Below, piece after piece: positions 1 to 29,425 of a stretch of 32,024 bases of DNA. The stretch's first letter is position 1. The number at the start of each line of letters is the position of its first letter. Source of the stretch: Clostridiales bacterium Firm_05 (lineage in GTDB: Bacteria > Bacillota > Clostridia > Oscillospirales > Ruminococcaceae); contig LVAK01000070.1 in assembly GCA_001604035.1 (NCBI GenBank), positions 1 through 32,024 on the forward strand. The letters are read 5' to 3'. The notes beneath the pieces were generated by a model, which saw nothing but the letters and a program-made list of their open reading frames with translations, had not been told where the DNA came from and did not search any database. A program made the position numbers and the translations under genes.

Positions 1-522
1 CAATGCGCCTCCCATAAGACCGGCGCTATGGACTGCCCGAACAAGTCTTCCATAAGCGGACTGATGCTGGAGCGGAGTATCCTCAGCGAGCTGAACTGTA
101 TCCTTGAAAAAAACTGCCGGCCTGAGAATATACGCATAGGCGATATCCGAAGTGACCGGCTGAAGGAGCTGGAAAAGAAGCTGTCAGTCCTCCTGGCAAA
201 GCAGAGCAATGCCAAGGATAGGCTTGTTAGAATGTATAAGGATAAGCTGGACGGAACGCTTTCTGATGAGGACTATTTCCTGTTCCGTAAAAGTCTCAGT
301 CAGGAGGAACAGGCTCTGTCTGTACTTATAGAAGATACCGTCCGTCAGATTGAGCTCTGCCGCAGTGAAGCTTCTCACATTGGAAAGAGCGATGTGATTG
401 AAAAGTACATCCCCTTAAACAAGCTTGATCGTACTGCCGCCGATGAGTTCATCGACTGCATCGAGATAGGTTTGGCAGACAAAAACGGCCTGCGTGAAGT
501 ACATATCCGCTGGAAGCTGTGA
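1..522 (+). CDS. Large serine recombinase, C-terminal fragment (cut by left edge)
   Basis: The frame is open to base 1, so only the C-terminal ~173 residues are present. The first residues visible have Cys/Cys spacing like the second half of a recombinase zinc beta-ribbon (Cys in the second codon, then DCPNKSSI). A long charged coiled-coil stretch follows (roughly 40-110), and the end reads DEFIDCIEIG...VHIRWKL. That ending is typical of clostridial large serine integrases, where a late IxxIxVG element is followed by a beta strand. Such enzymes move integrative elements or prophages by catalysis from an N-terminal Ser domain, which lies outside the window. A hairpin follows the stop. The gene is probably the last one of a mobile element whose boundary lies close by. 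Family assignment rests on the pattern of the C-terminus only. Confidence 0.72.
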   Translation, partial: QCASHKTGAMDCPNKSSISGLMLERSILSELNCILEKNCRPENIRIGDIRSDRLKELEKKLSVLLAKQSNAKDRLVRMYKDKLDGTLSDEDYFLFRKSLSQEEQALSVLIEDTVRQIELCRSEASHIGKSDVIEKYIPLNKLDRTAADEFIDCIEIGLADKNGLREVHIRWKL

Positions 523-578: not shown

Positions 579-610
579 GGGAAGGACCTTTCTTCAGAAA
601 GGTCCTTCCC
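579..610 (+). terminator. Strong 14-bp hairpin downstream of the recombinase
   Basis: A perfect 14-bp inverted repeat (579-592 with 597-610) closes on a TTCA tetraloop. There is no T-tract on either side, so it is terminator-like or a mobile-element end structure rather than a textbook intrinsic terminator. It sits between the recombinase stop and the convergent dockerin gene. The rest of 523-671 shows no gene. Confidence 0.55.
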
Positions 611-671
611 CGGGAAAACATATACTGCTATTAAATGTGATACAGTTATATTAAAAACTTATTATTGCAGA

Positions 672-2981
672 TCAGTCCTCAAGAAGAGTGCGCTGTACTT
701 TAAGAGCGTCCATAGGAGTTATTCCATCGCCGGTATTGTAGATATCAGCGTTGAACTCACCTCTTGAGTTGAGCTTGTATTTGTCAGGGTTGGAGATAGT
801 CTGCATTATGAGAACAGCATCGTTCATCTTGAGAACACCGTCGTCAGATGCGTCACCTGTACGTTCTGTTGGAAGAGGAGTATATACGTGTGCAGGTGTT
901 TTAGTGCCGTCTGCTCCCTCAGGGATAGCGTGCATAAGTTCTTCAGCAAAACCAAAGAGACTGTGATTGTAATTATCGTTGAATCGGTCGATCGTGCCGT
1001 ATTTTGAAACGTATATGCCTGCGAAGAGCGCATCTGAGCTGTCGCATGAAAGTCCGTTGTTGTTGCAGTCAAAGTGCTTTGAAAGGAATTCTATATCTGG
1101 CTCCCAGTCGAAGAAGTCCATATTACTGAAACATCTTTCAATATAGTTAGAGAAGCTGTCGTCAATAGGTCTGTATGTTTTTTCACGGTTATAAAGGATA
1201 CCTAAAATAGTAAGATCCATTTCGTCAAGATCTCCGTCGCCGTCCATGTCAGGTTCAGCTATCTCTCCGTTTTGAATTGCCTGTTCGTACATAGCATAGG
1301 TGTATTTCAGATAATTTGGATTCGGGCTGTGCCAGGTGAGAATATCACAATAATCATTGTAATTGACCAGACCTGCTTCGATAGCGAGAACTCTTGCTTC
1401 GCCAAGGTAACTATATCCGTATCCGTTGATACCTGACATATGCTCTATCATTTCATTTGTGAAATCGTCTGTAAAGCCTAATGAGGTCACTCTGTTATGG
1501 AAGTAATCATAGCAGAACTGAGGATCGAGCCATTCCTCTGAAAAATCATAGTTTTTCATAAAGTATCTTATCATATATGTTCCGATCGGACTTATGGAGG
1601 CATCAATAAATGGATGTTCTACAGTGTATTCGGCACAGTTTCTGATAGTTGTTTCATCAAGTGGGATCTCGTGGATATACTCATTCAAAGGTATTGATAC
1701 TCCGTCGATAGGTTCTTTGCCCAGAAGATCATCATAGTAATGCAGTTTCATCCAGCCTGGATTTCTATAATATACATTTTCGTAATTATCCAGAACAGCA
1801 GCATATGATGCTTTAACAATACCGCCCCATGAGCCGGCATAATCTGAGAATATCCAGAAATCAAAGCAATCCTTTATATCTGTGATACCGTCTTCATTGA
1901 AATCGAAACTTACATTGTTTTCCTTGTCATATTTTTCGGCGTAGCCGAATCCAAGAGTGCCGGGACGGCAATATGAAGCCATATACCAGCTATCAGATGC
2001 TATGCTGCCGTCGAGGGTACAGAAGTTGTTTATATCGTAGTCTGATGGTATTATTCCGTTATTGTTGTAATAGTAATTAAAAAAAGTCCAATCATTATAC
2101 TGAATGATCATTTCATCCGGATCGATAAGCTCTCCGTTTTCATCGAAATTCTCGCTGCCGATAATATTTATGCGTTCTTCCCTTGTAAAATATTTGGCAA
2201 AATTTCCGTTGTCATCATTGACTTCTTTGCGGCTTTGATTATCACATAAGAAAACTGCAAAGCAATCACGGATATCAAAATTTCCGTCTCCGTTCAGGTC
2301 AGTCCTGAGTTCACCGGAATCAAATTTTTCAAAATACTCCATATTGTCGGCGGCCGCATACCTATCCTCTCCATAGCGGACGATAGGCGAAGTGCTTACA
2401 GGAGCAGTATTTGTCATTGTAGATGCCGCAGCTAAAGCTGCTAAGAATTTTTTTATCATAGTTATTCCCTCCTCTTGGGTTATAGGTCTATAGTTTTCTA
2501 TATCATGTGACTTAACTGCGGAGGTTGTGACTGACGGCTTCTGATAAGAAACATATGCCGCAGTCGAGACCGCAGTGTCCGGAATTTTTTCTGCTCCGGA
2601 CTGTGAAGTGGTAGTAATGCTGCTGTTGCTTATAGCTGATACCTGTGGAATACTTACGGTGGATGTTTTGCTGCTTCCGTGAACTGGTGCGGCAGTAGTT
2701 ACCGTAACGGTATGTTCAGCGTTTTTATTTGTTACAGTTGTGCTTGGAACGATATTATCCATATCTTCTGAAGAGATGATGTTGCTGTGCTCCTCGAAGT
2801 CCTTGGAGGAAGCTTTGCTGAGTGCCCCACCGTTCCACAGTGCAAAGGCGGCAGCTGCTGCTGTGCAGACTCCGGCGGCTGCGGCAGTTATCTTTTTTAT
2901 ACGGACACTGCGTGCCTGCTTTTCGGCTATTATCTGATCGCCACGCTGTTTGACGATGGCAGCCATTTCTTTATAATCCAT
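672..2981 (-). CDS. Anti-sigma-like membrane protein fused in frame to a secreted dockerin protein
   Basis: 769 residues. Residues 1-30 are a short charged cytoplasmic segment, followed by one hydrophobic helix (about 30-50) and a Ser/Thr-rich linker (about 52-165). This layout is expected of a membrane anti-sigma factor, and the gene overlaps the upstream ECF sigma gene by 11 bp with its own AAAGGAGG site. From Met175 a second signal-peptide-like segment begins (MIKKFLAAL...). The large C-terminal part contains EF-hand/half-dockerin loops at 228-239, 360-371 and 578-589, a looser one near 638-650, and a terminal dockerin whose first loop is 710-721 (DASDDGVLKMND). No zinc anti-sigma motif is seen. 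The dockerin should bind a cohesin outside the cell. Anti-sigma function is inferred from position and topology. The second hydrophobic segment raises the possibility of two products (see the internal start). Confidence 0.75.
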   Translation of the reverse strand: MDYKEMAAIVKQRGDQIIAEKQARSVRIKKITAAAAGVCTAAAAAFALWNGGALSKASSKDFEEHSNIISSEDMDNIVPSTTVTNKNAEHTVTVTTAAPVHGSSKTSTVSIPQVSAISNSSITTTSQSGAEKIPDTAVSTAAYVSYQKPSVTTSAVKSHDIENYRPITQEEGITMIKKFLAALAAASTMTNTAPVSTSPIVRYGEDRYAAADNMEYFEKFDSGELRTDLNGDGNFDIRDCFAVFLCDNQSRKEVNDDNGNFAKYFTREERINIIGSENFDENGELIDPDEMIIQYNDWTFFNYYYNNNGIIPSDYDINNFCTLDGSIASDSWYMASYCRPGTLGFGYAEKYDKENNVSFDFNEDGITDIKDCFDFWIFSDYAGSWGGIVKASYAAVLDNYENVYYRNPGWMKLHYYDDLLGKEPIDGVSIPLNEYIHEIPLDETTIRNCAEYTVEHPFIDASISPIGTYMIRYFMKNYDFSEEWLDPQFCYDYFHNRVTSLGFTDDFTNEMIEHMSGINGYGYSYLGEARVLAIEAGLVNYNDYCDILTWHSPNPNYLKYTYAMYEQAIQNGEIAEPDMDGDGDLDEMDLTILGILYNREKTYRPIDDSFSNYIERCFSNMDFFDWEPDIEFLSKHFDCNNNGLSCDSSDALFAGIYVSKYGTIDRFNDNYNHSLFGFAEELMHAIPEGADGTKTPAHVYTPLPTERTGDASDDGVLKMNDAVLIMQTISNPDKYKLNSRGEFNADIYNTGDGITPMDALKVQRTLLED
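2457..2473 (-). promoter_or_regulatory. Internal ribosome site and ATG for a nested secreted dockerin product
   Basis: On the minus strand AGGAGGG (2467-2473) lies 7 nt before an in-frame ATG (2457-2459) at codon 175 of the 769-codon frame. The codons after it encode Met-Ile-Lys-Lys followed by a hydrophobic Ala/Leu run and a polar segment, as in a Sec signal peptide. Initiation here would give a 595-residue secreted dockerin protein lacking the anti-sigma-like part. Confidence 0.5.
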
Positions 2982-3525
2982 AATATACCGCCCCCTCCTT
3001 TGTCAGTTCTTTTTTTAGTATTTGCTTTGCCCTGTACAGCAGGTCTCTTACCTGTTTATTGGACTTGTTCATTATCTTTGCAGCTTCGTCGTTGGTGAAG
3101 TTTTCAAAGAATACCAGGCATATGGCCTGACTGTATTCGGGTTTCAGCTTTGAGACGATCCTGCGGAGGTCGGCCCGCATCTCGTCCTTGTCGACCTTCT
3201 TTTCTATATCATTCCCGTCGGAAATGTAATATGCTTCTTCGAGAGGAGTACAGGATAACTTCGAGAGCTTCCGTACTGAATCATAAGCCTTGTTTCGACC
3301 TATCGTGTATATCCAGGTCTTGAATGCGCCGCTGCCCTTGAAACGGGGCTTGTCAACGTAGAGCTTGACGAATGTATCGATAGCTGCCTCTTCGGCCAGC
3401 TGCATATCTCTGGTTATACTGTAAAGGTAATAAACGAGACCGTCTTTGTATTCTTTTATTATCTCATCGATAGCATCTTTATCTCCCGACAGGAAACGGC
3501 TGTAGCTACTTGAACCGTTATCCAT
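2971..3525 (-). CDS. ECF-type RNA polymerase sigma factor
   Basis: 184 residues, the usual ECF size. Region 2 spans about residues 7-65 (FLSGDKDAIDEIIKEYKD..., then an EEAAIDTFVKLY segment and FKTWIYTIGRN). Region 4 spans about 125-178, with a helix-turn-helix reading FTNDEAAKIMNKSNKQVRDL followed by YRAKQILKKEL. It directs RNA polymerase to a specific promoter set, normally held inactive by a cognate anti-sigma factor, here the overlapping downstream gene. The start is set by AAAGGAGGAACAGC-ATG. The operon is divergent from the GH5 cellulase gene across about 410 bp, so plant polysaccharide sensing is a reasonable inference but is not shown by the sequence. Confidence 0.9.
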   Translation of the reverse strand: MDNGSSSYSRFLSGDKDAIDEIIKEYKDGLVYYLYSITRDMQLAEEAAIDTFVKLYVDKPRFKGSGAFKTWIYTIGRNKAYDSVRKLSKLSCTPLEEAYYISDGNDIEKKVDKDEMRADLRRIVSKLKPEYSQAICLVFFENFTNDEAAKIMNKSNKQVRDLLYRAKQILKKELTKEGAVYYGL

Positions 3526-3661
3526 GCTGTTCCTCCTTTCGCAGGAAATATTTCCGTTTGTTACTTATACGAAAAAAATCAGGATGTTGTCGCAGTAAAA
3601 ATAAAAAAATCCCGGAAAATTTTTTCAGCGGCATTACTGAGCTTCGTTTTTCTTTATATAA

Positions 3662-3690
3662 AATATACCATATAAGTGCGGACAAATCAA
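3662..3690 (-). promoter_or_regulatory. Sigma-A-like promoter of the ECF sigma operon
   Basis: The minus strand reads TTGATT (3685-3690), 17 nt, TATATT (3662-3667), which would leave a ~130-nt leader before the ATG at 3525. If real, the sigma gene is at least partly transcribed by the housekeeping polymerase. I saw no clear ECF-type -35/-10 pair in the region. Confidence 0.45.
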
Positions 3691-3785
3691 TCACGCAGGC
3701 GTAAGAGCTGCAGCGTATAAATATTATCATATTCATTGATCGTCAATACAATTCTCCTAAAGCTACAAAAAAGCACCTTTTTTAT

Positions 3786-3836
3786 TGGTTAAAACCACCA
3801 AAAGAAGAGAAGATTATTCTACACGTCAAACGTGTA
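3786..3836. promoter_or_regulatory. Two candidate operator dyads upstream of the GH5 promoter
   Basis: Dyad one is TGGTT-AA-AACCA at 3786-3797. Dyad two is TACACG-TCAAA-CGTGTA at 3820-3836 with perfect 6-bp arms, ending 18 bp before the -35 of the GH5 promoter. The position suits a repressor or activator site, but no regulator can be named. Confidence 0.35.
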
Positions 3837-3854
3837 CAACATAGCTTGTTTTTG

Positions 3855-3883
3855 TTGACTTGTTTTGAGCAATGTGATAAAAT
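3855..3883 (+). promoter_or_regulatory. Promoter of the GH5-esterase gene
   Basis: TTGACT (3855-3860), 17-nt spacer, TAAAAT (3878-3883), with a predicted start near 3890 and a ~49-nt leader ending in an AAGGAGG ribosome site. It is a near-consensus sigma-A promoter. Confidence 0.65.
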
Positions 3884-3938
3884 GAAAATGAAATAGTGTG
3901 TGCAGGCACTATTAAATTAAAAAAGGAGGATGTTCACA

Positions 3939-6788
3939 ATGAGATCATTCATCAGAAGGACGGTAAGCATTGCCGCAGCTGCCGCCTGTATGCTGACGAG
4001 CCTGCATTTCACGTATATCACGGAAGTGAAGGAAGCTGACGCAGCAAGCGGCATGAACGCCTTTGAGATCACCCGTGAGATGAAGATAGGCTGGAATATA
4101 GGCAACAGCCTTGACGCAACAGGAGGTGCCGGTTATTCAGGCGTAAACACTGAGGTTAGCTGGGGCAACCCAAAGACAACTAAGGCGATGATAGACACAG
4201 TTAAGGCGAAGGGTTTTAATACGGTAAGAATACCTACCACATGGTATCCTCATCTGGACGGAAGCAACAACATCGACAGTGCATGGATGGCGAGAGTCAA
4301 GGAGGTCGTTGATTACTGTATCGACGATGATATGTACGTTATCCTAAATGTACACCATGAGGACTGGGTAAATGTTTCTCAGTTCAACGATCAGACCTAC
4401 CAGAATGCAGAGAAAAAGATCACTGACATCTGGAGCCAGGTGTCAGAGGAGTTCAAGGACTACGATCAGCACCTCGTTTTCGAGGGCATGAACGAGCCCC
4501 GTCAGACAGGAAATGCCGCTGTAAGTCAGTGGGGCAACGGTGAGGGCGACAACGGCTACTCATGGAACTATATCAACAAGCTCAATGCAAAGTTCGTTGA
4601 GACTGTCCGCAAGCAGGGCTCGTCTTCAAATAAGGAGCGTCTCCTTATGCTGCCAGGCTATTGTGCTTCTTCGGATATGAAGGCTATACGTGCAGTAACA
4701 TTCCCGTCAAACTGCGGAAATGTGGCTTACTCTGTACACGCTTATCTGCCATACTATTTCACAATGGCAGAGGATTCATATTCCAACCACAACTATCCCG
4801 GACAGAGCGGCTGGGGTGAAAATTATACCGAATCCATCAATTCCTTCTTCAGCGGCCTCAAACAGCTTGAGGACGAGAAGAATATCCCGGTAGTCATCGG
4901 TGAGTTCAGCGCTTCAAACTTCGACAATCTCAGCGCACGTAAGGCATGGGCAAAGGATTATATTACACAGGCTAAGAAAGCCGGTATTCCATGTATACTC
5001 TGGGATAATAACGTTGAGGGCGGAAACGGCGGTGAATCTCACGGCTATCTCAACAGAAGCAGCAATTCATGGTATTCAGCCTCAGAGGGTGTCATCGACA
5101 CTATGATGTCAGTTATCAACGACGATTCTATCCTCTGGGCAGGCAAGGCTGCTCCTGTCAGAACCACCACTACAACTACGACACCGATCATAACAACAAC
5201 TAAACCTGAGCCATCAGAGCCTTATCCATATGACAACTATTTTGTCAATGACTTTGAAAACGGCACTGATGACTGGTCCGGCAGGGGAAGCGCTTCTGTC
5301 AGCACAGATAAGAAGAACTACTACGCTGGCTCTTCCTCACTCTATGTTTCCGGCAGAGAGAAGGAGTGGAACGGTTGTGCAATACCGCTCTCATCTGATC
5401 TTTTTGTGCCCGGTGAGACCTACAGCTTCAGTGCGGCAGTCCTCCAGAAGAGCGGCTCGGATGTGACTATCCAGATGTCTCTCCAGCAGGGTGACGGCAA
5501 TGGGGCTTCCTACAATCATATTGCTGACTGCTCGGCAAAGAGCGGCGAATGGACAAAGATCGAGAACGTTGAGTTTACTATCCCTGATAAGAGCGGCGAT
5601 CTTATCCTTTACTTCGAGACTCCTGAGGGCTCAGGTGATCTCTGCGATTTCTATGTGGATCAGGTACAGGTCTCAAAGGCTAATGTTCCGTCAAAGGTAG
5701 TTACCGGTCAGGGAACTGTTGAAAGCTCAAATGTTGATCCTCAGCCTCACGGCAGCGGAAGTCTCAGCAAGGACGGCGTTATAAAGATAATGCCTATCGG
5801 CGATTCAATTACCTTCGGAATGGGCGATACCGGCGGATACAGAAAGTTCCTCTATCATTTCCTTAAGGAAAAGGGCTATACTCAGATCGATATGGTGGGT
5901 CCGGAGGGACAGAATTCTGCTTCCTTCAATTACAATGGACAGAATGTACAGTATGATGACAACAACGCCGGCTACAGCGGATATACTATCGTTCAGAAGT
6001 ATCCTATCCCGAGCTGGGGCGAAAACGGTCTCCTTGAAAAGCTCCAGAGCAAGAACGCTATCGCAAGTGCAAAACCTGATATCGTGCTCCTCATCATAGG
6101 TACAAACGATATGACTGCAAACCGTGATCTCAGCGAGTGCGAGACAGATCTTCACTCACTGCTGGATTATATCCTCAAGGATCTTCCCGCAGACAGTATG
6201 ATCTTCATAGGCTCCATACCTGAGTTTACCGCATACGGCGGAAACTCCCAGCGAGTTGCAAACTATAACAAGACTGTCAAGAAGGTGGCTGATGAATATG
6301 CTTCTTCCGGAAAGAACGTACAGTTTGCTGATGTTCACGGCTGCCTTAACGGCATGAGCGATATCGGCAATGACCAGCTCCACCCGAATTCCGGCGGTTA
6401 TGAGAAGATCGGTAAGTTCTGGGCAGGTATCATTGATAATTATGTTGCATCAGCTGCTCCGATAGTTACAACTACAACAACGACTACAACCACCACAACA
6501 ACTACTACCACTACAACAACAGCACCTCCTTCACCGCAGGCTACTGTATGGGGAGATGCAGATGATGACGGCGTTGTTAAGATGAATGATGCAGTCCTCA
6601 TAATGCAGGCTCTTTCAAATGCAGACCGCTACGGCCTCGAGGGAACTGACAGCACTCACATAAAACAGCAGGGATGGGTGAATGCAAATGTTTACGACAA
6701 CAGCACCAGCGGAATAACTCCACAGGACGCTTTGCAGATACAGAGATTCCTGCTTGGACTGGTGACGAGCCTTACTCCGAAAACATAA
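3939..6788 (+). CDS. Multidomain cellulosomal enzyme: GH5 - CBM - SGNH/CE3-like esterase - dockerin
   Basis: 949 residues from the ATG at 3939. An ATG at 3930 lies at the edge of the AAGGAGG ribosome site and is rejected. After a signal peptide (~1-37), a GH5 domain spans ~40-400 with GWNIGNSLDA, the acid/base Glu186 in MNEP and the nucleophile Glu322 in VIGEF. The pattern resembles subfamily GH5_4 (endoglucanase/xyloglucanase). A Thr-rich linker leads to a beta-sandwich CBM4/9/22-like module (~432-580). An SGNH hydrolase (~615-838) follows, with GDS (Ser623), GTND (Asn723) and DxxHPN (Asp812/His815), resembling CE3 acetylxylan esterases. An 18-Thr linker (844-861) joins the C-terminal dockerin (first loop 873-884). 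The enzyme should hydrolyse beta-glucan backbones and remove acetyl groups while docked on a scaffoldin. Confidence 0.93.
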   Translation: MRSFIRRTVSIAAAAACMLTSLHFTYITEVKEADAASGMNAFEITREMKIGWNIGNSLDATGGAGYSGVNTEVSWGNPKTTKAMIDTVKAKGFNTVRIPTTWYPHLDGSNNIDSAWMARVKEVVDYCIDDDMYVILNVHHEDWVNVSQFNDQTYQNAEKKITDIWSQVSEEFKDYDQHLVFEGMNEPRQTGNAAVSQWGNGEGDNGYSWNYINKLNAKFVETVRKQGSSSNKERLLMLPGYCASSDMKAIRAVTFPSNCGNVAYSVHAYLPYYFTMAEDSYSNHNYPGQSGWGENYTESINSFFSGLKQLEDEKNIPVVIGEFSASNFDNLSARKAWAKDYITQAKKAGIPCILWDNNVEGGNGGESHGYLNRSSNSWYSASEGVIDTMMSVINDDSILWAGKAAPVRTTTTTTTPIITTTKPEPSEPYPYDNYFVNDFENGTDDWSGRGSASVSTDKKNYYAGSSSLYVSGREKEWNGCAIPLSSDLFVPGETYSFSAAVLQKSGSDVTIQMSLQQGDGNGASYNHIADCSAKSGEWTKIENVEFTIPDKSGDLILYFETPEGSGDLCDFYVDQVQVSKANVPSKVVTGQGTVESSNVDPQPHGSGSLSKDGVIKIMPIGDSITFGMGDTGGYRKFLYHFLKEKGYTQIDMVGPEGQNSASFNYNGQNVQYDDNNAGYSGYTIVQKYPIPSWGENGLLEKLQSKNAIASAKPDIVLLIIGTNDMTANRDLSECETDLHSLLDYILKDLPADSMIFIGSIPEFTAYGGNSQRVANYNKTVKKVADEYASSGKNVQFADVHGCLNGMSDIGNDQLHPNSGGYEKIGKFWAGIIDNYVASAAPIVTTTTTTTTTTTTTTTTTTAPPSPQATVWGDADDDGVVKMNDAVLIMQALSNADRYGLEGTDSTHIKQQGWVNANVYDNSTSGITPQDALQIQRFLLGLVTSLTPKT
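6468..6521 (+). repeat. ACN codon repeat encoding an 18-Thr linker
   Basis: Eighteen consecutive threonine codons (mixed ACA/ACT/ACC/ACG) separate the esterase from the dockerin. A shorter Thr run separates the GH5 and CBM. These are flexible, probably glycosylated linkers whose length could vary in frame by slippage. Confidence 0.85.
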
Positions 6789-10146: not shown

Positions 10147-10500
10147 GTTTTATCACTTCTTTCGGTATTATTTATGGGTTATATCTTTATAGCTCCTTTA
10201 CCTGTCCCAGCAGATACTGCTGTATCAGCAGGGCGTCCATAGGAGTAAGGGTGCTGGTCTCTCTGTCATGAACATTGGCGTAGGTCATTCCGGTTTCGGT
10301 TATTTTGGTATCGGCAGTACCGTCCGCAGAATACTTGTCCGGGTTGGAGATAGACTGCATTACCAGAACAGCGTCATTCATTTTGACATTGCCGTCGCAG
10401 TCAGCATCGCCGGCGAGAAATCTGTACCGGGCTTTGAACATATCGGGAATTATCTCTTCTGGACAGCCCTTGAACATATTGCGGGTATTCTGTTCTTCTG

Positions 10501-11355
10501 TAAAAGTGAAGCTGTCAATGTTGAGCGAGGTCATGGCAGAGCAGCCTTCAAACATTGAGTGCATATCTTCGACTTTTGAGGTATCAAAGCTGCTCAGATC
10601 GAGTGAAGCAAGTGATGAGCAGTTACGAAACATTTCAACCATATTAATTATGTTTGAAGTATCAAAGCTGCTCAGATTGAGTGAAGTAAGTGATGAACAG
10701 CCATCGAACATTCCATACATATTAATTACGTTTGAAGTGTCAAAGTTACTCAGATCAAGGGAAGTAAGTGATGAACAGTTATAAAACATTCCACCCATAT
10801 TCGTCGCTTTTGAAGTGTCAAAGTTACTCAGGTCAAGAGAAGTAAGCGATGAGCAGCCTTCAAACATTCCACCCATATCAGTTAATTTTGAAGTATCAAA
10901 GCTACTTAAATCAAGTGAAGTAAGTGATGAACAGTTGTGAAACATTGCACCCATTTCAGTTAATTTTGAAGTATCAAAGTTACTCAGATCAAGTGATGTC
11001 AGCGATGAACAGTTAGAGAACATATAATACATCCACACAATGTTTGATGTATCAAAGCTGCTCAGGTCAAGAGACTCAAGAGATTCGCAATTCATGAACA
11101 TACAATTTGCAGAATTTAGTTTTGAAGTGTTGAACGAACTCAGGTTGATTCTTTTCAGCGACCGACAACCGTAGAACATACCATCCATGTTGAAAACTTC
11201 TGAAAACTTCTGAAGTATCAAAACTGCTCAGGTCAAGAGATTCAAGCGATGAGCAATTATCGAACATGAAGCTCATATCAGTTACGTTTGAAGTATCAAA
11301 ATTACTCAGATCAACGGACTTAAGCTCGCTGCAGTGAGAGAACATTCTATCAGTT
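10501..11355 (-). repeat. Tandem 72-bp leucine-rich repeats
   Basis: About eleven units of 72 bp encode 24-residue repeats. At DNA level the neighbouring units between roughly 10600 and 11100 are very similar, sharing AGTGATGAACAG and TTTGAAGT.TCAAA blocks, which favours unit gain or loss and slipped-strand events. Confidence 0.85.
11191..11210. repeat. Perfect 10-bp tandem duplication causing the frameshift
   Basis: TGAAAACTTC occurs twice without a gap, followed by a partial third copy (TGAA). One copy must be removed to restore the reading frame, and the restored residues fit the 24-residue repeat consensus. Confidence 0.9.
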
Positions 11356-11704
11356 TTTTCCACATTTGATGAATCAGCCTTTGAAAGATCGATAGTTATA
11401 GCGTTCATATTTGCAAATAAGCGTCCGCAACTCCTTGGGAGTATCGCCCCTTCTTCTGCAACTATGTGCAGGGCGTCTTTGTATTCACTTACGTTTCTAT
11501 AAACTTGCCCGGCTTTAAGGGTGAGAGTTTTTGTTTCCTCGTCGTATTCTACGTTTGAGCTCTCTGCGTGTGCAGTTATGGTGCGTGAGGTCTCGGGGAC
11601 GAGAACTCCTGTGTTCGGCATACCCATGCCGATGACTGACATTGCGAGCAATATCGCTGCTGTTCTTCTAAAAGTCTTTTTCATAATTTTTACCTCCATT
11701 AATT

Positions 11705-18221: not shown

Positions 18222-19058
18222 ATGGAAATGTCAGAAGAAAAAACATTGTCTCCCGTACAGGTCCATGTTATGGATCTGCTTCATAAGCTTATAGAGATGT
18301 TTGAGGAGGAGAATATCTCCTATTATATCCTCGGCGGCACAATGCTCGGTGCAGTAAGACACAAGGGATTCATCCCATGGGATGATGATGTAGATATCGG
18401 AATCGAGAGAAAAGACTATGAGAGGTTCCTTAAGACCTGCCGCAGCAAACTGCCGGATTACCTAAAGATAAGGACTTACCGTGACAAGTCCTATCACCAT
18501 TACTACTATGCAAGAATAGTGGATACCCGCTATCATATAAAGAGAATGGGCAGCATAAAGGAGAGACAGGAAGAACTCTGGATCGACCTTTTCCCACTGG
18601 ATGGTATGCCTGACGGAAAGATCAGGACACTTATCCACAAGGCTCGTCTCCTTACTGTAAGGCTCATGTACCATATGTCCTGCTTCGATAAAGTAAATGT
18701 AAAGCGTCCCGGACGCCCGCTTATGGACAGGATGATAATAAAGTTCCTTATGATAACACATCTCGGAAAATCATGGAACAGCAAGAAACTGCTGGATAAA
18801 ATAGACAAGCTGCTGAAGAAGTATCCTGTTGAGGATTCAAACTACGTCTTCAACTTCATGGGAAGCACTCACGCTTTCAGAGAGATATTCAGCAAAAAAT
18901 GCTTTGGTAAGGATACAAAGTACCAGTTCGAGGATATGATGCTGGTAGGCCCTAAGGAATATGACGAGTACCTTTCAAAGCTCTACGGCGATTATATGAA
19001 GCTTCCGCCGGAGAGCGAGAGAAATGTCCACGCTGAGGAATTTGTTGAAAAGATCTGA
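18222..19058 (+). CDS. LicD-family phosphotransferase 1
   Basis: 278 residues; ATG 18222 is 9 nt after AAAGG. The LicD core is clear: YYILGGTMLGAVRHKGFIPWDDDVDIG (residues ~34-60, catalytic acidic cluster D54-D56/D58) and a C-terminal LYGDYMKLPPE. LicD proteins transfer phosphocholine or other phospho-alcohols from CDP carriers to cell-surface glycans at the cytoplasmic face. This is the first of three paralogues in the cluster and the promoter-proximal gene. The alcohol transferred cannot be read from sequence. The presence of two cytidylyltransferase-type proteins downstream supports a CDP donor. Confidence 0.92.
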   Translation: MEMSEEKTLSPVQVHVMDLLHKLIEMFEEENISYYILGGTMLGAVRHKGFIPWDDDVDIGIERKDYERFLKTCRSKLPDYLKIRTYRDKSYHHYYYARIVDTRYHIKRMGSIKERQEELWIDLFPLDGMPDGKIRTLIHKARLLTVRLMYHMSCFDKVNVKRPGRPLMDRMIIKFLMITHLGKSWNSKKLLDKIDKLLKKYPVEDSNYVFNFMGSTHAFREIFSKKCFGKDTKYQFEDMMLVGPKEYDEYLSKLYGDYMKLPPESERNVHAEEFVEKI

Positions 19059-19108
19059 GGCACAGCAATATTTCCTGCATAAAGTTTGGTATGAGGAGTA
19101 AGTGAACA

Positions 19109-20002
19109 ATGAGACTTCATGATGTATCAAAGGGTGCGTCATCAGACGATACGCCGGTACTTACAGAGCAGCAGCTCAGGGATATCCAGCGTGTATCGCT
19201 CATGATGCTTGATGATATCAATGAGATATGCCAGAAATATGGGCTCAGGCTCTATATCATCGGCGGCACAGCTATAGGTGCATTGCGCCACAAGGGCTTT
19301 ATCCCGTGGGATGACGATATCGATATCGCCATGACCAGAAAGGATTACCTTAAGCTGGCTGATGCCATGAGGGCGGAGCGCAGCGATAAGTATACAGTTT
19401 CCGACGCAAGGGATAAGGAGAATTACGGACGTCTCATCCCGAAGGTACGCCTTAAGAATACTACCTACCGCACTGTCCTTGAAAAGGATCTGGATGACTG
19501 CGGTGTAAGGATAGATATTTTTCTTATCGAGAATACCTATGACAGCAAGCTGCTGAGGACTCTCCACGGCGGTATGTGTATGTTCTTCGGCTTCGCACTT
19601 TCCTGCCGCAGACTGTGGATGCACTACGATGAATTCAGCAAGCTCTCAGGCGGATTATCATTCAAGGTTAAGTCAGCTTTCGGTATGCTTTGCAGCTTTG
19701 CTTCCATTGAGCGCTGGGCAAAGTGGACAGATTGGTGGTATTCCTGCTGTAAGAAGGAAGACTCAGTCTACGTTACACTGCCTTCTGACGGAAAGCATTT
19801 CTTCGGTGAACTGGAGAAAAGAAAAAAGCTCCTCAAGGGCGGAAAAGTTGACTATGAGGGAAGAGAATTGCTCGTTCCCGGAAATACAGATCATTATCTG
19901 AGAAAGCACTACGGCGATTATATGAAGATACCGCCGAAGGATAAGCAGCTCAGGAGCAAATATCTTGAATTTGATCTCGGTGCATACGGTACCGGTGAAT
20001 AA
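19109..20002 (+). CDS. LicD-family phosphotransferase 2
   Basis: 297 residues; ATG 19109 with GAGGAG about 10 nt before it. It has an N-terminal extension of ~20 residues, then LYIIGGTAIGALRHKGFIPWDDDIDIAM (D68-D70/D72) and a C-terminal HYGDYMKIPPKD. It is a nucleotidyltransferase-fold phosphotransferase like its neighbour but clearly divergent, so it is probably specific for another acceptor or donor. It lies 50 bp after LicD 1. A ~100-bp gap with a hairpin separates it from the aminotransferase gene. Confidence 0.92.
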   Translation: MRLHDVSKGASSDDTPVLTEQQLRDIQRVSLMMLDDINEICQKYGLRLYIIGGTAIGALRHKGFIPWDDDIDIAMTRKDYLKLADAMRAERSDKYTVSDARDKENYGRLIPKVRLKNTTYRTVLEKDLDDCGVRIDIFLIENTYDSKLLRTLHGGMCMFFGFALSCRRLWMHYDEFSKLSGGLSFKVKSAFGMLCSFASIERWAKWTDWWYSCCKKEDSVYVTLPSDGKHFFGELEKRKKLLKGGKVDYEGRELLVPGNTDHYLRKHYGDYMKIPPKDKQLRSKYLEFDLGAYGTGE

Positions 20003-20036
20003 TGCTTACTATTTATAATATATAAGGGTTTGTGTG

Positions 20037-20085
20037 TAGCCCGATAATACTGTAGTCAGCAGCCGGGCTATGCTAATAATTTTTT
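20037..20085 (+). promoter_or_regulatory. Intercistronic hairpin with T-run
   Basis: A 7-bp stem TAGCCCG/CGGGCTA (20037-20043 with 20064-20070) has a 20-nt loop that can form a small CTG/CAG inner pair. TTTTTT lies 10 nt after the stem (20080-20085). It could be a leaky terminator or processing site that reduces downstream expression. A TATAAT at 20014-20019 lacks a good -35. Confidence 0.35.
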
Positions 20086-20101
20086 GGGAGAGGTTTTGTC
20101 A

Positions 20102-21178
20102 ATGATCAATTTTACGGTGGGACCTGTACAGTCAAGCGAAAAGGTCAGAATGATAGGAGCTGAAAACGTTCCTTATTTCCGTACACCCGAATTTTCCGCA
20201 GTAATGCTGGAGAATGAGAAGCTTATCAAGGAATTTGCCGGAGCAGAGGAAAATGCGAGAGCTGTGTTTATAACAGGTTCCGGTACCGCTTCAATGGAAG
20301 CATCAGTAATCAATATGTTCGGTAAGGAGGACAAGCTCCTCATCGTTAACGGAGGAAGCTTCGGAGCTCGCTTCGTTGAGATCTGTGAGATACACGAGAT
20401 CCCTCATACCGCTATCATGCTTGAGCATGGAAAGAAGCTTACCCAGGATATGCTCGATAACTACAGAGGACAGGGCTTTACAGGCTTCCTTGTAAACCTC
20501 CACGAAACTTCCACCGGCGTACTCTATGACGCTGATATGATCGGAAGATTCTGCCGTGAGGAAGGACTTCTCCTTGTAGTTGACGCAATAAGCGCTTTTC
20601 TTGCCGATCAGTTCAATATGGCTCAGGTCGGCGCTGATATAATGATAACAGGTTCCCAGAAGGCACTTGCCTGCCCTCCCGGTATATCCCTGATAGTCAT
20701 GTCAGAGCGTGCTGTGTCAAGAATAGAGAGCAGAAAGGTAAGCTCATTGTATTTTGACCTGAAGAGCGCCCTCAAGAATGCTGAGAGAGGACAGACTCCA
20801 TTCACTCCTGCTGTAGGTACGCTTTTACAGATAAACGCAAGACTCAAGGAAATAAAGGAAAGCGGCGGAGTTGAGGCTGAACATAAGAAGATAGCAGCAC
20901 TTGCTGCTGATTTCCGTGAGAGGATAGCTGATCTTCCTCTTGATATATGTTCAGAGTCGCTTTCAAACGCAGTTACTCCTCTTGCTGTACGCAACTGCTC
21001 TGCATATGACATATTCATGATAATCAAGGATGAGTATGATATGTGGATATGTCCAAACGGAGGAGATATGCGTGATAAGATATTCAGAGTAGGACATATC
21101 GGATGTCTTACTGTTGAAGACAATAAAAAGCTTTCAGATGCGCTTCATGATCTCGTAAAGAGAAATATTCTTAAATAG
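20102..21178 (+). CDS. PLP-dependent class V aminotransferase (PhnW/AGXT-like)
   Basis: 358 residues from ATG 20102 with GGGAGAGG 8 nt upstream; an alternative TTG at 20084 precedes that site and is rejected. The fold-type I class V features are visible: an N-terminal VGPVQSS (like TPGP), [10 protein letters not shown] (~58-67), [15 protein letters not shown] (Asp161, pyridine N contact) and [11 protein letters not shown] with Lys187 as the likely Schiff-base lysine. The closest well-known relatives are 2-aminoethylphosphonate-pyruvate and alanine-glyoxylate aminotransferases. Inside a LicD/cytidylyltransferase cluster it probably aminates a small aldehyde or ketone that becomes a polymer substituent. 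The substrate is unknown. It is followed 11 bp later by the dehydrogenase gene. Confidence 0.88.
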
Positions 21179-21189
21179 GAGATAAAAGT

Positions 21190-22125
21190 ATGAAAATAAT
21201 CACTCATGATATGATAAAGGGCCTTGGTCTCGAACCGAATCTCTGGTTTGAATGGGCAGATACCGTATTAAAGAACAAGCATCTCTATACTATGCCCGCA
21301 AAGACAAGCCTTCACTTCGGCAGTTCATACTTCAATACAATGCCAAGCATCCTTCCTCCCGAAAACGTTATGGGCGTGAAGGTGGTAGACAGATATCTCG
21401 GAAGAATACCTTCTCTTGACAGCCAGCTCATGCTCTACAGATATGAGGACGGTACTCCTCTCGCTCTCATGGACGCAAGCCTCATCACTGCTATGCGTAC
21501 AGGTGCTGTTACAGTTCACGCTATGGAGACATTTGCAAATCCTGATTTCTATGAGGTAGGAATAATGGGCTTCGGAAATATAGGCGTTGCAACTATGGAG
21601 GTGCTCACAGCTCACTTCTCAGCAAAGCCTATGAAGATAAAGCTCCTCAGATACAAGGATCATGCAGAGCGCATAAAGGAAAGATACAGCAGATTCAGCA
21701 ATATTGAATTTGTTATAGTTGATACAGTCAAGGAGCTCATCGTCAACAGCGATGTTGTTATCTCCAGTATTACCTATACCGAGGAGCTTCTCGGCGAGGT
21801 AGAGTGGTTCAAGAAGGGCGTTCTCGTTATCCCTGTACATTTAAGAGGATTCCAGAACTGCGATACAGAGTTCGATAAGGTATACGGCGATGACTACGGT
21901 CAGGTAAAGGGCTTCAAGTACTTCAACGAATACAAATACTTCGCAGAGACATCAGAAGTCCTCAGAGGCGAGAAGGTCGGCCGTGAGAACCACGATGAGA
22001 GGATACTTTCCTACAACGTTGGTATGTCACTTCATGATATATTTGCCGCTTCAAAGATCTACCAGTACTTCGGCGACGTTAAGGATGAGCTTTCATTAGC
22101 TCCCCATGATAAGCTCTGGCTCTGA
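21190..22125 (+). CDS. Ornithine cyclodeaminase / mu-crystallin family dehydrogenase
   Basis: 311 residues; ATG 21190 after AGGAGATAAAAGT. The family motif LMDASLITAMRTGAV (~93-107) is followed by a Rossmann NAD(P) fold with GIMGFGNIG (124-132). Members include ornithine cyclodeaminase, alanine dehydrogenase and SbnB-like enzymes that oxidise or reductively couple amino acids. The tight spacing to the aminotransferase suggests they act in one pathway, for example converting an amino compound to or from its imine or keto form. I cannot assign the reaction. The stop lies 16 bp before the chosen start of the next gene. Confidence 0.85.
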   Translation: MKIITHDMIKGLGLEPNLWFEWADTVLKNKHLYTMPAKTSLHFGSSYFNTMPSILPPENVMGVKVVDRYLGRIPSLDSQLMLYRYEDGTPLALMDASLITAMRTGAVTVHAMETFANPDFYEVGIMGFGNIGVATMEVLTAHFSAKPMKIKLLRYKDHAERIKERYSRFSNIEFVIVDTVKELIVNSDVVISSITYTEELLGEVEWFKKGVLVIPVHLRGFQNCDTEFDKVYGDDYGQVKGFKYFNEYKYFAETSEVLRGEKVGRENHDERILSYNVGMSLHDIFAASKIYQYFGDVKDELSLAPHDKLWL

Positions 22126-22141
22126 AATGGGGTGTGATCAT

Positions 22142-23476
22142 TTGGTAAAGGTCATTACTTACGGCACTTATGATCTGCTTCATTATGGCCATATCCGCTT
22201 GCTTGAACGTGCAAAGGCACTTGGCGATTATCTTATCGTCGGAGTAACATCTGATGACTACGATAAGTCAAGAGGCAAGATAAATGTCCAGCAGTCTCTG
22301 ATGCAGCGTATCGAAAATGTCAGATCCACCGGTCTGGCAGATGAGATCATCGTTGAGGAGTATGAGGGACAGAAGATAGATGATATAAAAAAATACGGCA
22401 TCGATATCTTCACAGTCGGTTCGGACTGGAAGGGGATATTCGATTACCTCAATGAATACTGCAATGTGGTATATCTTGACAGGACACAGGGCATCTCCAG
22501 CTCTGACCTTAGAAAGAAACAGCGTGCTCTGGATCTTGGACTTGTGGGCAATTCACGCTTCCTTGAGAAGGTGGCTTCACAGGTGAAAATGGTCAACGGC
22601 ATCAATCTCAGCGGTATCTGCACGGATTCTCCGGAGGATATCGGCAGGGAAGTCATGAATATACCGTTTGTTACAAGAGACTATGATGAGCTCCTGACAA
22701 AGTGCGATGCGGTATATGTTCATTCTACTCCAAAGGAGCACTATGAACAGATAGAAAAGGCGCTTCGTGCCGGAAAACACGTTCTCTGCGAGGCTCCTAT
22801 AGCAATGTCCGGAGAACAGTGGGATAATCTTCAGAAGCTGGCCGAAGAAAATGGAGTAAGACTTATGGATGCTCTGAGAACGGCTTACTCTATGGCATAT
22901 CGCCGCCTTATACTCATGGTCAAGGGCGGAAAGATCGGCAATGTGGTTTCTGTTGACGCAACCTGCACCAGTCTTAAGGATCTGAATACAGATGATATCC
23001 AGCGTAAGTGGAACAGCATCTGCGACTGGGGCCCAACAGCCCTGCTGCCTGTATTCCAGCTCCTCGGTACTGATTATACCGAAAAGAGCATAGTCAGCCA
23101 TTTCGTAGGCGAGAACAAGGATTTTGACGCTTTCACGAAGATATCCTTCGTATACACCAACGCCGTGGCTTCACTTAAGGTCGGCAAGGGCGTTAAGTCC
23201 GAGGGCGATCTGGTCATTTCAGGTACAAAGGGCTATGTATATGTACCTGCTCCCTGGTGGAAAACGGATTACTTCGAGGTAAGATACGAGGATCCGCTGG
23301 AGAACAAGAGGTATTTCTACCAGCTTGACGGCGAGGGCATCTGTATGGAACTCGCTGTATTTGCAAGATCTATAACGCAGTCGCAGTCTCTTTATGCTGT
23401 TGAGCCAGACGTATCAAAGGCTATATGCGAGATCATCAATGACTTTAATGAGAGGAAAGGCGTCCGCATTATATAG
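22142..23476 (+). CDS. Cytidylyltransferase fused to a Gfo/Idh/MocA oxidoreductase-like domain
   Basis: 444 residues from TTG 22142, chosen because the TagD-like domain begins at VKVITYGTYDLLHYGH and GGGGTG lies ~8 nt upstream; in-frame ATGs at 22106 and 22127 are alternatives. The N-domain (1-~130) has the HxGH motif (14-17) and RTQGISSSD (114-122), as in glycerol-3-phosphate/ethanolamine-phosphate cytidylyltransferases. The C-domain (~131-444) looks like Gfo/Idh/MocA (GLVGNSRFLEK, VHSTPKEHYEQIEKALRAGKHVLCE, WGPTALLP). The usual EKP motif reads EAP (217-219), replacing the catalytic-site Lys with Ala. The N-domain should make a CDP-alcohol. The C-domain may alter or bind it, or may be inactive. 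Confidence 0.88.
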   Translation: MVKVITYGTYDLLHYGHIRLLERAKALGDYLIVGVTSDDYDKSRGKINVQQSLMQRIENVRSTGLADEIIVEEYEGQKIDDIKKYGIDIFTVGSDWKGIFDYLNEYCNVVYLDRTQGISSSDLRKKQRALDLGLVGNSRFLEKVASQVKMVNGINLSGICTDSPEDIGREVMNIPFVTRDYDELLTKCDAVYVHSTPKEHYEQIEKALRAGKHVLCEAPIAMSGEQWDNLQKLAEENGVRLMDALRTAYSMAYRRLILMVKGGKIGNVVSVDATCTSLKDLNTDDIQRKWNSICDWGPTALLPVFQLLGTDYTEKSIVSHFVGENKDFDAFTKISFVYTNAVASLKVGKGVKSEGDLVISGTKGYVYVPAPWWKTDYFEVRYEDPLENKRYFYQLDGEGICMELAVFARSITQSQSLYAVEPDVSKAICEIINDFNERKGVRII

Positions 23477-23481
23477 TTCGG

Positions 23482-23504
23482 CTGCCCGGATATCCGGTCG
23501 GCAG
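23482..23504 (+). other. Intercistronic hairpin before LicD 3
   Basis: CTGCC (23482-23486) pairs with GGCAG (23500-23504), with an inner CGG/CCG stem and a small bulge. There is no T-tract. It may affect RNA processing or stability in the 56-bp spacer. Confidence 0.3.
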
Positions 23505-23532
23505 TATATGATTATATGGAGTGCTTAGATCA

Positions 23533-24384
23533 ATGGATAAACATAATATGCTTTCACTTCAGGATACACAGCGTGTATACCTTGAACTGATGAAGGAATT
23601 CGATAAGATCTGTAAAGATAATTCGCTAAGATATGATCTTTGCGGAGGAACCCTGCTGGGCGCAGTAAGACACGGCGGCTTCATCCCATGGGATAATGAT
23701 ATCGACGTTGCTATGCCACGCCCGGATTTTGAAAAGCTCATGAAGCTCGATATGAAGAAAAAGATAGATCTTCCGCCGGAAAGAGAGCTCATCTCCCTTA
23801 TAAACGGAAAGTTCCTGCGCCAGTTCGGAAGATATATCAGAACGGATGTTGCTAAGGAAGCAGGTATGAAGGACAATACAGACTGCCGTTTTCTTGGCAT
23901 AGACATCTTCATTGTTGACGGTATGCCTGCAAGTGATACCGCAATGAAGACGCAGTCCTTCCGTGTAAAACAGATGAGAAGATTTCTCCATACCAGCCTT
24001 GAAAGAAGAGGCACCAGCCGCAAGGGCAAGGCTGCCGCTTTCGTGAAGGATCTTTACAGACCGCTGCTCAAGGCTGTTGGCAGCAGGAGACTTGCTGTCC
24101 GCCTTGATAAGATCTGTAAGAAGTATCCATTCGGTTCTTCGGAGTACGTGGGCTGTGTGAACGGTATGTACGGAATAAAGGAGAGGTGGAAGAAGTCGGA
24201 TATGCTTCCGCAGGCAGACTATAAGTTTGAGGACTGCGTATTCAGAAGCTATGCCAACTATAAAATATATCTCGGCAACCTTTACGGAGACTTTATGAAG
24301 CTCCCGCCCGAGGACAAGCGTGTTCCTCATGGTTCGGAACACTATTGGGTGAATGAAGTGAAAAATGTTGAGGAGGAATCATAA
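23533..24384 (+). CDS. LicD-family phosphotransferase 3
   Basis: 283 residues from ATG 23533, which has GGAGTG 9 nt upstream; a GTG at 23521 lies inside that ribosome site. The core reads YDLCGGTLLGAVRHGGFIPWDNDIDVAM, so the acidic cluster is D54-N55-D56-D58 instead of DDD. The C-terminus has LYGDFMKLPPEDK. As with the other two it should transfer a phospho-alcohol to the glycan. The Asp to Asn change is a conservative variation also possible in active relatives, so inactivity is not implied. The stop overlaps the next start by one base (TAATG), so translation is coupled to the cytidylyltransferase gene. Confidence 0.9.
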   Translation: MDKHNMLSLQDTQRVYLELMKEFDKICKDNSLRYDLCGGTLLGAVRHGGFIPWDNDIDVAMPRPDFEKLMKLDMKKKIDLPPERELISLINGKFLRQFGRYIRTDVAKEAGMKDNTDCRFLGIDIFIVDGMPASDTAMKTQSFRVKQMRRFLHTSLERRGTSRKGKAAAFVKDLYRPLLKAVGSRRLAVRLDKICKKYPFGSSEYVGCVNGMYGIKERWKKSDMLPQADYKFEDCVFRSYANYKIYLGNLYGDFMKLPPEDKRVPHGSEHYWVNEVKNVEEES

Positions 24385-25097
24385 TGACAGTTGCTTTATT
24401 AACAGCGGCAGGCTCAGGCACGAGAATGAAACAGGATATACCAAAGCAGTTTATCCATGTTGAGAACAAGCCTATAATCATCCATACAATGGAAGCTTTC
24501 CAGAATCATCCTGCTGTTGATGCTATAATCGTAGTTACTATCCCTTCATGGATAGACGTTGTAAAGGCTTATGCCAAGCAGTTCAATATAACAAAGCTGC
24601 GCTGGGTGGTTCCCGGCGGAGCTACAGGACAGGAGTCTATCCTCAACGGTCTCAAGACACTTGAGGCCGAGCTTGATCCTGAGGATATAGTAATGGTACA
24701 TGACGGAAACAGATGTATGGTATCAAGCGAGATCATCTCCAACAGCCTTGCTACCTTCAAGAAGCACGGAAGCGCTGTTGCAGCTATACCATGTGTTGAG
24801 GCTGTATTCCGCAGCAGCGATGACGGTATATCATCAACAGTTTCTATCCCGAGAGAGCAGCTCTTCCGCACACAGACTCCTCATACCTATACCCTCGGAA
24901 AACTGCTCTGGGCTCACGATGAAGCAAAGAAGCGCAATATCACTGAAACTGCCGCTTCATGCACCCTTATGCAGAGCCTCGGAGAGGTAGTGTATTTCTC
25001 TCAGGGATCTGAGGAAAATCTGAAAATAACAACAGTTGACGATATTATGATATTCAAGGCTCTTCTGAATACCAAAAAAGATAACTGGCTGAAATAA
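24384..25097 (+). CDS. IspD/TarI-like cytidylyltransferase
   Basis: 237 residues with a GAGGAGG ribosome site. The family signature is present: LLTAAGSGTRM (6-15), PKQF (20-23), GATGQESILNGL, MVHDGNRCMVSSE and a late KITTVDD. IspD makes CDP-methylerythritol and TarI makes CDP-ribitol. HDGNR in place of HDAAR/HDAVR and the cluster context argue for a polyol- or other phosphate-specific enzyme supplying a LicD donor rather than isoprenoid synthesis. No TarJ-like alcohol dehydrogenase is adjacent; an SDR epimerase follows 14 bp later. Confidence 0.9.
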   Translation: MTVALLTAAGSGTRMKQDIPKQFIHVENKPIIIHTMEAFQNHPAVDAIIVVTIPSWIDVVKAYAKQFNITKLRWVVPGGATGQESILNGLKTLEAELDPEDIVMVHDGNRCMVSSEIISNSLATFKKHGSAVAAIPCVEAVFRSSDDGISSTVSIPREQLFRTQTPHTYTLGKLLWAHDEAKKRNITETAASCTLMQSLGEVVYFSQGSEENLKITTVDDIMIFKALLNTKKDNWLK

Positions 25098-25111
25098 GAG
25101 GTAAGTATCCT

Positions 25112-26149: not shown

Positions 26150-26152
26150 GAT

Positions 26153-27121: not shown

Positions 27122-27143
27122 TCTATCCCACAGGAGACAGACC

Positions 27144-29383: not shown

Positions 29384-29425
29384 TGACAATTATTAGAAAT
29401 ACTGATGACCTGTCAGGAGGATCAA

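Follow-up and report, generated by a model that had tools for sequence, protein, structure and literature searches.

An in-frame dockerin gene nested within an anti-sigma-like reading frame of Ruminococcus: conservation of the internal start points to tethered and secreted products

Introduction

Can one uninterrupted reading frame give a bacterium two proteins, a membrane-bound anti-sigma-like protein and a dockerin protein released from the cell? The question is raised by a stretch of 32,024 nucleotides (nt) from Clostridiales bacterium Firm_05 (assembly GCA_001604035.1, contig LVAK01000070.1), hereafter the window, in which the frame at 672-2981 on the minus strand begins like an anti-sigma membrane protein, carries an internal start at codon 175 and ends in a dockerin. 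An initial annotation had offered two explanations, namely two products from one frame or a recent fusion by loss of a stop codon. From the comparison of homologous loci, we consider it highly probable that one mRNA frame yields a tethered full-length anti-sigma-like protein and, by way of the internal start, a free secreted form carrying the EF-hand and dockerin part. Two products from one frame are well supported by nucleotide-level conservation of the internal site in 107 loci that share the one-frame layout.

Layout of the locus

The frame runs through 769 codons without interruption, and its start overlaps the end of an extracytoplasmic function (ECF) sigma factor gene (2971-3525, minus strand). 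From a short charged end it passes to a membrane helix and a Thr/Ser-rich linker; the internal ATG (2459-2457), preceded at 7 nt by AGGAGGG (2473-2467), is found just as the initial annotation had described it, and leads through a stretch resembling a signal peptide and an extended EF-hand-rich region to the C-terminal dockerin. The open frame and both starts can be read directly in the DNA. The features of the locus, all on the minus strand, are the following.

2971..3525, minus strand: ECF sigma factor gene, 184 amino acids (Pfam Sigma70_r2 and Sigma70_r4_2 above cut-off; TIGR02937 above cut-off)
3000-2994, minus strand: ribosome site of the first start, AAGGAGG
672..2981, minus strand: whole frame, anti-sigma-like membrane protein with dockerin, 769 amino acids (open frame; relative L219 matched over residues 1-769)
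2829..2888, minus strand: first membrane helix, positioned by eye at about residues 32-51 (sequence; best 19-residue hydropathy 1.74)
2478..2828, minus strand: Thr/Ser-rich linker, about residues 52-168 (sequence; family linker evidence given below)
2467..2473, minus strand: internal Shine-Dalgarno AGGAGGG, 7 nt ahead of the internal ATG (pairing -12.8 kcal/mol)
672..2459, minus strand: nested gene, predicted secreted dockerin protein, 595 amino acids (internal start and family conservation)
2388..2459, minus strand: signal-peptide-like N-terminus of the nested product (family alignment; weak in the window copy)
900..2327, minus strand: helical region rich in EF-hands, approximate limits (AlphaFold model, no PDB match at E 0.001 or better; dockerin-like pair at profile positions 48-114)
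684..860, minus strand: C-terminal dockerin of R. flavefaciens group 1 type (sequence and fold matches)

A family of one-frame loci

A profile built from 28 nested N-termini (the seed sequences), with a mean column identity of 20%, was searched against the genus Ruminococcus, which includes fibre-degrading gut bacteria, and matched at 1e-6 in 95 of 125 genomes, inspection being confined to the stronger matches. About 100 further loci were taken from the listed genus matches, which are more numerous, and all family counts cover the fetched loci. From 139 loci, 129 non-redundant matches were read, leaving out those that start past model position 8 or repeat the first 150 nt of an earlier match; 12 loci (L069, L078-L085, L087, L168, L182) held no kept match. 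The start was taken as the nearest Met within 8 residues of the profile start, and conservation of this Met and of the signal peptide is partly by construction, since the search profile begins there. The ribosome site lies outside the profile, and was seen by the analyst when the seeds were chosen.

By the open frame upstream of the Met, the matches split into 107 one-frame loci (at least 150 open codons), 18 free-standing genes (at most 40), three in between, with 41-149 codons (L058, L145 and L123, the last truncated at a contig end), counted in neither class, and one without a Met (L186), which stands outside all counts. The one-frame loci are spread over 51 genomes, the window's genome holding six. 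As in the window, an ECF gene of sigma-70 type lies directly upstream in 106 of the 107, the exception being L148. Compared with four query sigmas, these genes sort into four classes of 61, 22, 13 and 10 members; a single sigma taken from each class passes the Pfam cut-off for sigma-70 regions 2 and 4.

The free-standing secreted relatives (L072, L075, L136, L138, L139, L142-L144, L146, L147, L150, L151, L153, L155, L159, L163, L166, L170) have the ribosome site in 18/18 (median -12.0), and none of the 18 has a sigma gene in the at least 2 kb searched upstream. Beyond the genus, a sample of 297 genomes of the bacterial family gave a match at 1e-15 in the window's own genome only; four other genomes of the same genus in that sample gave none at this threshold.

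Such breadth bears on the second explanation offered at the outset. For a recent stop-loss fusion particular to the window's genome, or an error of sequencing or assembly, we found nothing in favor. The same open frame is present in the closest relative (L219, a Ruminococcus metagenome-assembled genome, 80% identity over residues 1-769) and in L055 (62% identity), with copies at 32-34% identity in the R. flavefaciens strains ATCC 19208, Y1, YAD2003 and MA2007; the layout is kept at 20% mean column identity, in 51 genomes and with four sigma classes. The homologues rule out an artefact or recent fusion, to which we give practically no probability.

Selection on the internal start

Far from consistently lacking the internal site and signal peptide, which the initial annotation had named as the outcome that would speak against it, most of the homologues keep the site. 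At the internal ATG, the mean pairing energy with the 16S rRNA tail is -10.78 kcal/mol over the 107 one-frame loci, 94 of which reach -6 or better; the tail used for scoring occurs in the window's genome. When the same seven residues were recoded with the family's codon usage (200 runs), the mean was -5.16 (standard deviation 0.26) and the best run -5.80, and 1,544 other in-frame Met codons of the same frames had a median of -1.85, with 8% at -6 or better. Taken one per cluster, 58 representatives below 50% identity gave -10.96 against a recoded -5.09 (standard deviation 0.37, best of 500 runs -6.09), and for 35 clusters at 35% identity the mean was still -10.5. Moreover, the site is kept through different residues and registers (ERS, EGS, EGR, RRV, EEG, EGG, QGG), and the Arg of the ER motif is coded by AGG in 60 of 64 cases, compared with 18% elsewhere. 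Because pairing goes far beyond that of the same residues recoded and Arg is so biased toward AGG, the internal ribosome site is, as far as comparison of genes can tell, selected as nucleotides.

Further measures have the form expected of a start codon, and none of the pairing, codon, third-position, folding and divergence measures played a part in finding the family. Synonymous divergence (dS) in 17 disjoint pairs (the first 22 of 30 minus five from clades without the site) was 0.13 at start codons +1 to +8 and 0.23 in the ribosome site, compared with 0.41 in the linker and 0.37 downstream. The G+C content of third codon positions (GC3) at codons +1 to +5 after the internal start was 0.19, where 0.46 was expected, and folding energy in 40-nt windows weakened to -2.8 for windows centred 10 nt upstream of the ATG and -3.1 for those centred on the ATG itself, from -5.3 to -6.3 at 40-150 nt upstream. 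The window's own site has no special RNA structure (z -0.87).

The internal start is also comparable in strength to the first one. Taking as first start the best candidate within 70 nt of the sigma stop, a choice that favors the first start, 104 of the 107 loci were usable; the median pairing was -12.7 for the first and -12.2 for the internal start, which was as strong or stronger in 34, and in 92% of the 104 the start so chosen for the first product overlaps the sigma stop or directly adjoins it.

Chance co-occurrence of site and signal was rare. The 162 other stop-to-stop frames of at least 250 codons in the DNA analysed, not all of them necessarily genes, contain 962 internal Met codons; seven of these had a site (-10 or better), 12 a signal-like start by a simple rule, and none both, compared with both together in 84 of the 107 family members, the window's gene included. 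Within the window alone, 19 other frames with 127 Met gave one site, two signal-like starts and none with both. Ten anti-sigma homologues with other outer domains, examined by eye at their two strongest internal in-frame starts each, had nothing signal-peptide-like after them; their best pairing was -9.6 (L079), and some moderate sites precede sequence that is not signal-like. Sigma-linked anti-sigma homologues of this kind, with a similar helix and Thr-rich linker and other unnamed outer domains, are found at L012, L078, L079, L080, L081 (two), L082, L083, L084 and L085.

These data bear equally on a free form released by proteolysis of the full-length protein, with ERSxxMKK conserved as a protein motif, which we hold to be very improbable. 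The residues of the motif vary while the nucleotides stay, as the AGG count of 60/64 illustrates, and the dips in GC3, folding and dS are start-like; on its side, ERS is seen more often than any other residue set, and it persists in L073 and L076, where the codons are AGA and the site is weaker. The recoding, codon and register tests ruled out ERSxxMKK as the conserved entity, those two loci notwithstanding.

Signal segment and membrane topology

The initial annotation had read a signal peptide behind the internal ATG, and had argued that in the full-length chain this second hydrophobic segment would send the dockerin back into the cytoplasm. The first helix has a median hydropathy of 1.92 and reaches at least 1.6 in 95% of the 107 loci, so that by hydropathy alone a single membrane helix stands behind the cytoplasmic end. 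The internal segment has a median 19-residue hydropathy of 1.36, reaching 1.6 in 11% and staying below it in 89%; medians were 1.71 for the free-standing relatives and 1.77 for ordinary signal peptides of dockerin proteins (n=10; 11 other dockerin proteins with one, a frame of L058, dropped). Within the first five residues of the internal segment the mean number of Lys/Arg is 1.77 and acidic residues are nearly absent; a loose A-x-A pattern is present in 93 of the 107, and a signal-like start in 102.

A variant of the two-product reading takes the internal segment as a second helix in the full-length form, with the dockerin inside and the nested product alone meeting cohesins. It is improbable in our view, its strongest points being the moderate hydrophobicity of the segment (the median of 1.36 over 19 residues) and the topology argument just cited, set against the rarity of values of 1.6 or more in the segment compared with the first helix, and the higher median of ordinary dockerin-protein signal peptides. 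In addition, its Lys pair lies on the side that would face outside, which would run against the positive-inside rule. Coming after a membrane helix, such a segment would more probably be carried across the membrane than halted with Lys outside, and hence the dockerin of the full-length protein is most likely outside the cell; the return to the cytoplasm is accordingly doubtful.

Points on the other side

Several observations weigh against a tethered and a secreted product from one frame. The window's own signal-like segment, with a hydropathy of 0.94, is among the weakest, and no clear A-x-A directly follows the segment core; confidence in the signal peptide proposed at the outset is therefore lower for the window copy than across the family. 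As for the anti-sigma-like membrane start, the helix behind an overlapping ECF sigma gene was confirmed, whereas no anti-sigma domain was matched in the window's frame (Pfam, NCBIfam) or in four relatives, one per sigma class (Pfam), and the putative anti-sigma role of the full-length protein is deduced from position and topology. The internal site is weak (above -6) in 13 of the 107 loci, 16 lie above -6.5, and such losses take 8 changes on the tree, counted with L215 labelled by hand as having the site, since a better start is present three codons upstream; in L186 the start position reads GTC. Because of these weak sites and the GTC, the nested product is evidently lost in some lineages and is not indispensable. 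Loss of the site and of A-x-A coincide (Fisher p 7.5e-5), but on independent pairs the ratio is about 3:0 and not significant (median p 0.25). Furthermore, the free-standing relatives have no GC3 dip at codons +1 to +5 (0.449, with 0.457 expected), and a promoter between the two starts, instead of an internal start, may be present: scanning 2981-2460 on the minus strand gave one 9-of-12 match, at 2956-2929 adjoining the first start, and promoter-like matches over 600-3950 on both strands numbered 19, compared with 8.7 in shuffles.

The weak-site members (above -6.5), several of them also without A-x-A, are L171, L172 and L174; L176, L180, L190, L192 and L195; L191 and L196; L206; L137; L073; L076; and L181. 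As natural losses they are useful as controls.

If only the full-length protein were made, the internal ribosome site and signal peptide would be relics of an old gene fusion. The one-frame layout and the 8 tree changes to a weak site do indicate that the full-length form can do without the site. A relic would, however, have decayed at such divergence, synonymous change is suppressed at the site, and the site goes far beyond what the residues require, so we give this explanation little probability. Production of both forms remains the reading that we prefer.

History of the fusion

Linker lengths, measured from the sigma stop in 30 of 32 disjoint pairs (two were dropped, being loci with two members), were equal in 10 pairs; the other 20 differ, 19 of them by a multiple of three, the one off that rule being L141/L152. 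The ratio of nonsynonymous to synonymous change in the linker was 0.60, below 1, over 17 pairs. By these gene comparisons the upstream frame is kept, so the fusion is maintained too. A frame test by free nucleotide alignment of the linkers was unusable (gap remainders of 0, 1 and 2 numbered 116, 66 and 42), many linkers being too diverged.

On a FastTree tree of the nested part, the label made of the four sigma classes, the free-standing genes and three small leftovers needs 28 changes, the least possible being 7, on a tree in which several long branches may be misplaced; well-supported branches alone force 13 changes for class A, 8 each for B and C and 3 for D. Because of this excess of 28 over 7, the nested cassette has apparently become attached to different sigma/anti-sigma pairs on many occasions.

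At L058 (3110-5411, genome G035) the linker frame reads as broken, and a 133-codon anti-sigma frame lies apart from an intact nested dockerin gene, which keeps its ribosome site and signal peptide. This is the sole out-of-frame case among the sigma-linked loci seen, because none of the 18 free-standing genes sits just behind a sigma gene.

Dockerin and EF-hand region

The dockerin protein claimed behind the internal start was borne out by sequence, by fold and by the match to a neighboring dockerin. The C-terminal domain matched the R. flavefaciens group 1 dockerin 5m2o_B with E 1.9e-14 in sequence and a template modelling (TM) score of 0.76 in fold, normalised by the 74-residue target (Foldseek E 0.024), and is 56% identical to the dockerin of the window's neighboring GH5 cellulase; by sequence and fold together it is a two-loop dockerin. 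On the whole nested product, Pfam Dockerin_1 scored 21.9 bits, below the cut-off of 22.9, its best stretch being an inner EF-hand.

The AlphaFold model of the nested product (m82a3280a724d; 22 sequences) is nearly all helical, with a mean predicted local distance difference test (pLDDT) score of 73 and a predicted TM score of 0.64; residues 2-35 fall below a pLDDT of 50. Against the PDB, Foldseek gave no match to the model, with its EF-hand-rich region, at E 0.001 or better, and the sole probable matches were dockerins, the best with E 0.0075 (5m2s_B). Since group 1 dockerins were crystallised with a ScaB cohesin, as the titles of entries 5m2o and 5m2s state, the partner of this group 1-type dockerin is likely to be a scaffoldin cohesin.

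Comparison with known systems

Genes nested in the same frame are a known kind, and so are anti-sigma sensors that carry external domains. SafA-C30 is one product of in-frame internal initiation. In the accessible text of PMC11005335, IF2 alpha/beta and SsaQ are likewise in-frame genes within genes made in this way, where a second start in one frame gives an N-terminally shorter protein. The window's gene resembles them in having a second start with its own ribosome site, conserved beyond the residue needs of the outer protein. In contrast to these cases as described there, what follows the internal start here is a predicted Sec-type signal peptide, which should send the short form outside as a free protein, and a large paralogous family is joined to four sigma/anti-sigma types. 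The mycobacteriophage Ms6 lysA gene, with a second endolysin embedded in frame, is similar in that one gene lies fully within another; its product is a phage lysis enzyme, and the opening of the abstract does not state a change of place by signal peptide (PMC3111421).

On the signaling side, the SigI/RsgI systems are alike in placing a sigma gene before a membrane protein that has a single helix and an external domain facing plant-wall material, and in being present as several paralogous copies within a genome; for Acetivibrio, the available part of PMC11557425 gives 7 to 14. SigI combines region 2 with another C-terminal domain, as outlined in the part of PMC6056542 at hand, whereas the sigma here has sigma-70 regions 2 and 4. 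Unlike RsgI, the external part here ends in a dockerin and a nested form is present; no RsgI domain, which would pair with SigI, stands among the window's Pfam and NCBIfam matches.

Among R. flavefaciens dockerin proteins, arranged in groups 1-6 in the accessible text of PMC2930009, the likeness lies in a C-terminal group 1 type dockerin, a putative signal peptide and an otherwise unknown domain; the difference from those described there is the position in frame behind an anti-sigma-like membrane protein. By word count, the word sigma is absent from the main text of PMC2930009 and PMC4081043. A two-dimensional gel protein with a dockerin and no other known domain appears as P-Doc-1 in the available part of PMC3672088. 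In the open-access literature, as far as its accessible text extends, we found no description of a layout in which an inner start opens a signal peptide and relocates the product, linked to an ECF sigma and a dockerin.

Proposed mechanism and significance

We infer that both proteins are made with the topology given above, and that the full-length form has anti-sigma activity and a sensor role. Starting at the first ATG, ribosomes would make an anti-sigma-like protein with a short cytoplasmic end, one membrane helix, the Thr/Ser linker and an external EF-hand/dockerin part, in which the signal-peptide segment most likely crosses the membrane as part of the linker. Starting at the internal Shine-Dalgarno and ATG, they would make the EF-hand/dockerin part alone, secreted free by its own Sec signal peptide. 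The tethered protein would probably act as a sensor of cohesin or cellulosome state, and a coupling of signaling to that state, as the initial annotation had supposed, is plausible. We propose that the free form could share or compete for the same cohesins, so that the sensor would read the balance of enzymes and seats.

A bolder extension is tentative, and we think it unlikely as a whole: the tethered form and a free decoy with the same dockerin, made in a set ratio from one frame, would report vacant cohesin seats on the scaffold, and the cassette of site, signal peptide, EF-hands and dockerin, moving as a unit among four ECF sigma/anti-sigma types, would be the missing regulation of Ruminococcus cellulosomes.

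If two products are indeed made, this would be a large conserved bacterial family of genes nested in the same frame, with the second start changing the product from membrane-tethered to secreted. Gene-calling programs that retain the longest frame alone would give one protein and hide the secreted form. The family would also be a concrete candidate for the regulation of Ruminococcus cellulosomes, because RsgI receptors are used only by Acetivibrio-type cellulosome producers, according to the accessible part of PMC11557425.

Other features of the window

Divergent from the sigma gene lies the GH5 cellulase (3930-6788, plus strand), with CBM_4_9, a GDSL esterase and a dockerin, preceded by a sigma-70-like promoter match at 3855-3883. 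A DUF285/leucine-rich repeat dockerin protein (10187-11699, minus strand) is split over two overlapping frames, as if the frame were broken within the repeats, 11076-11699 holding the signal-like start and 10187-11221 the dockerin. At the contig edge, a 164-residue open reading frame (28-522, plus strand) had no Pfam match at E 0.001. Finally, a surface-polysaccharide-like cluster (18222-30922, plus strand) includes an IspD-type cytidylyltransferase, a class-V aminotransferase, an ornithine-cyclodeaminase-like enzyme and genes that we take to be LicD-like; at 22106-23476 in this cluster, a cytidylyltransferase is fused to a GFO/IDH/MocA oxidoreductase.

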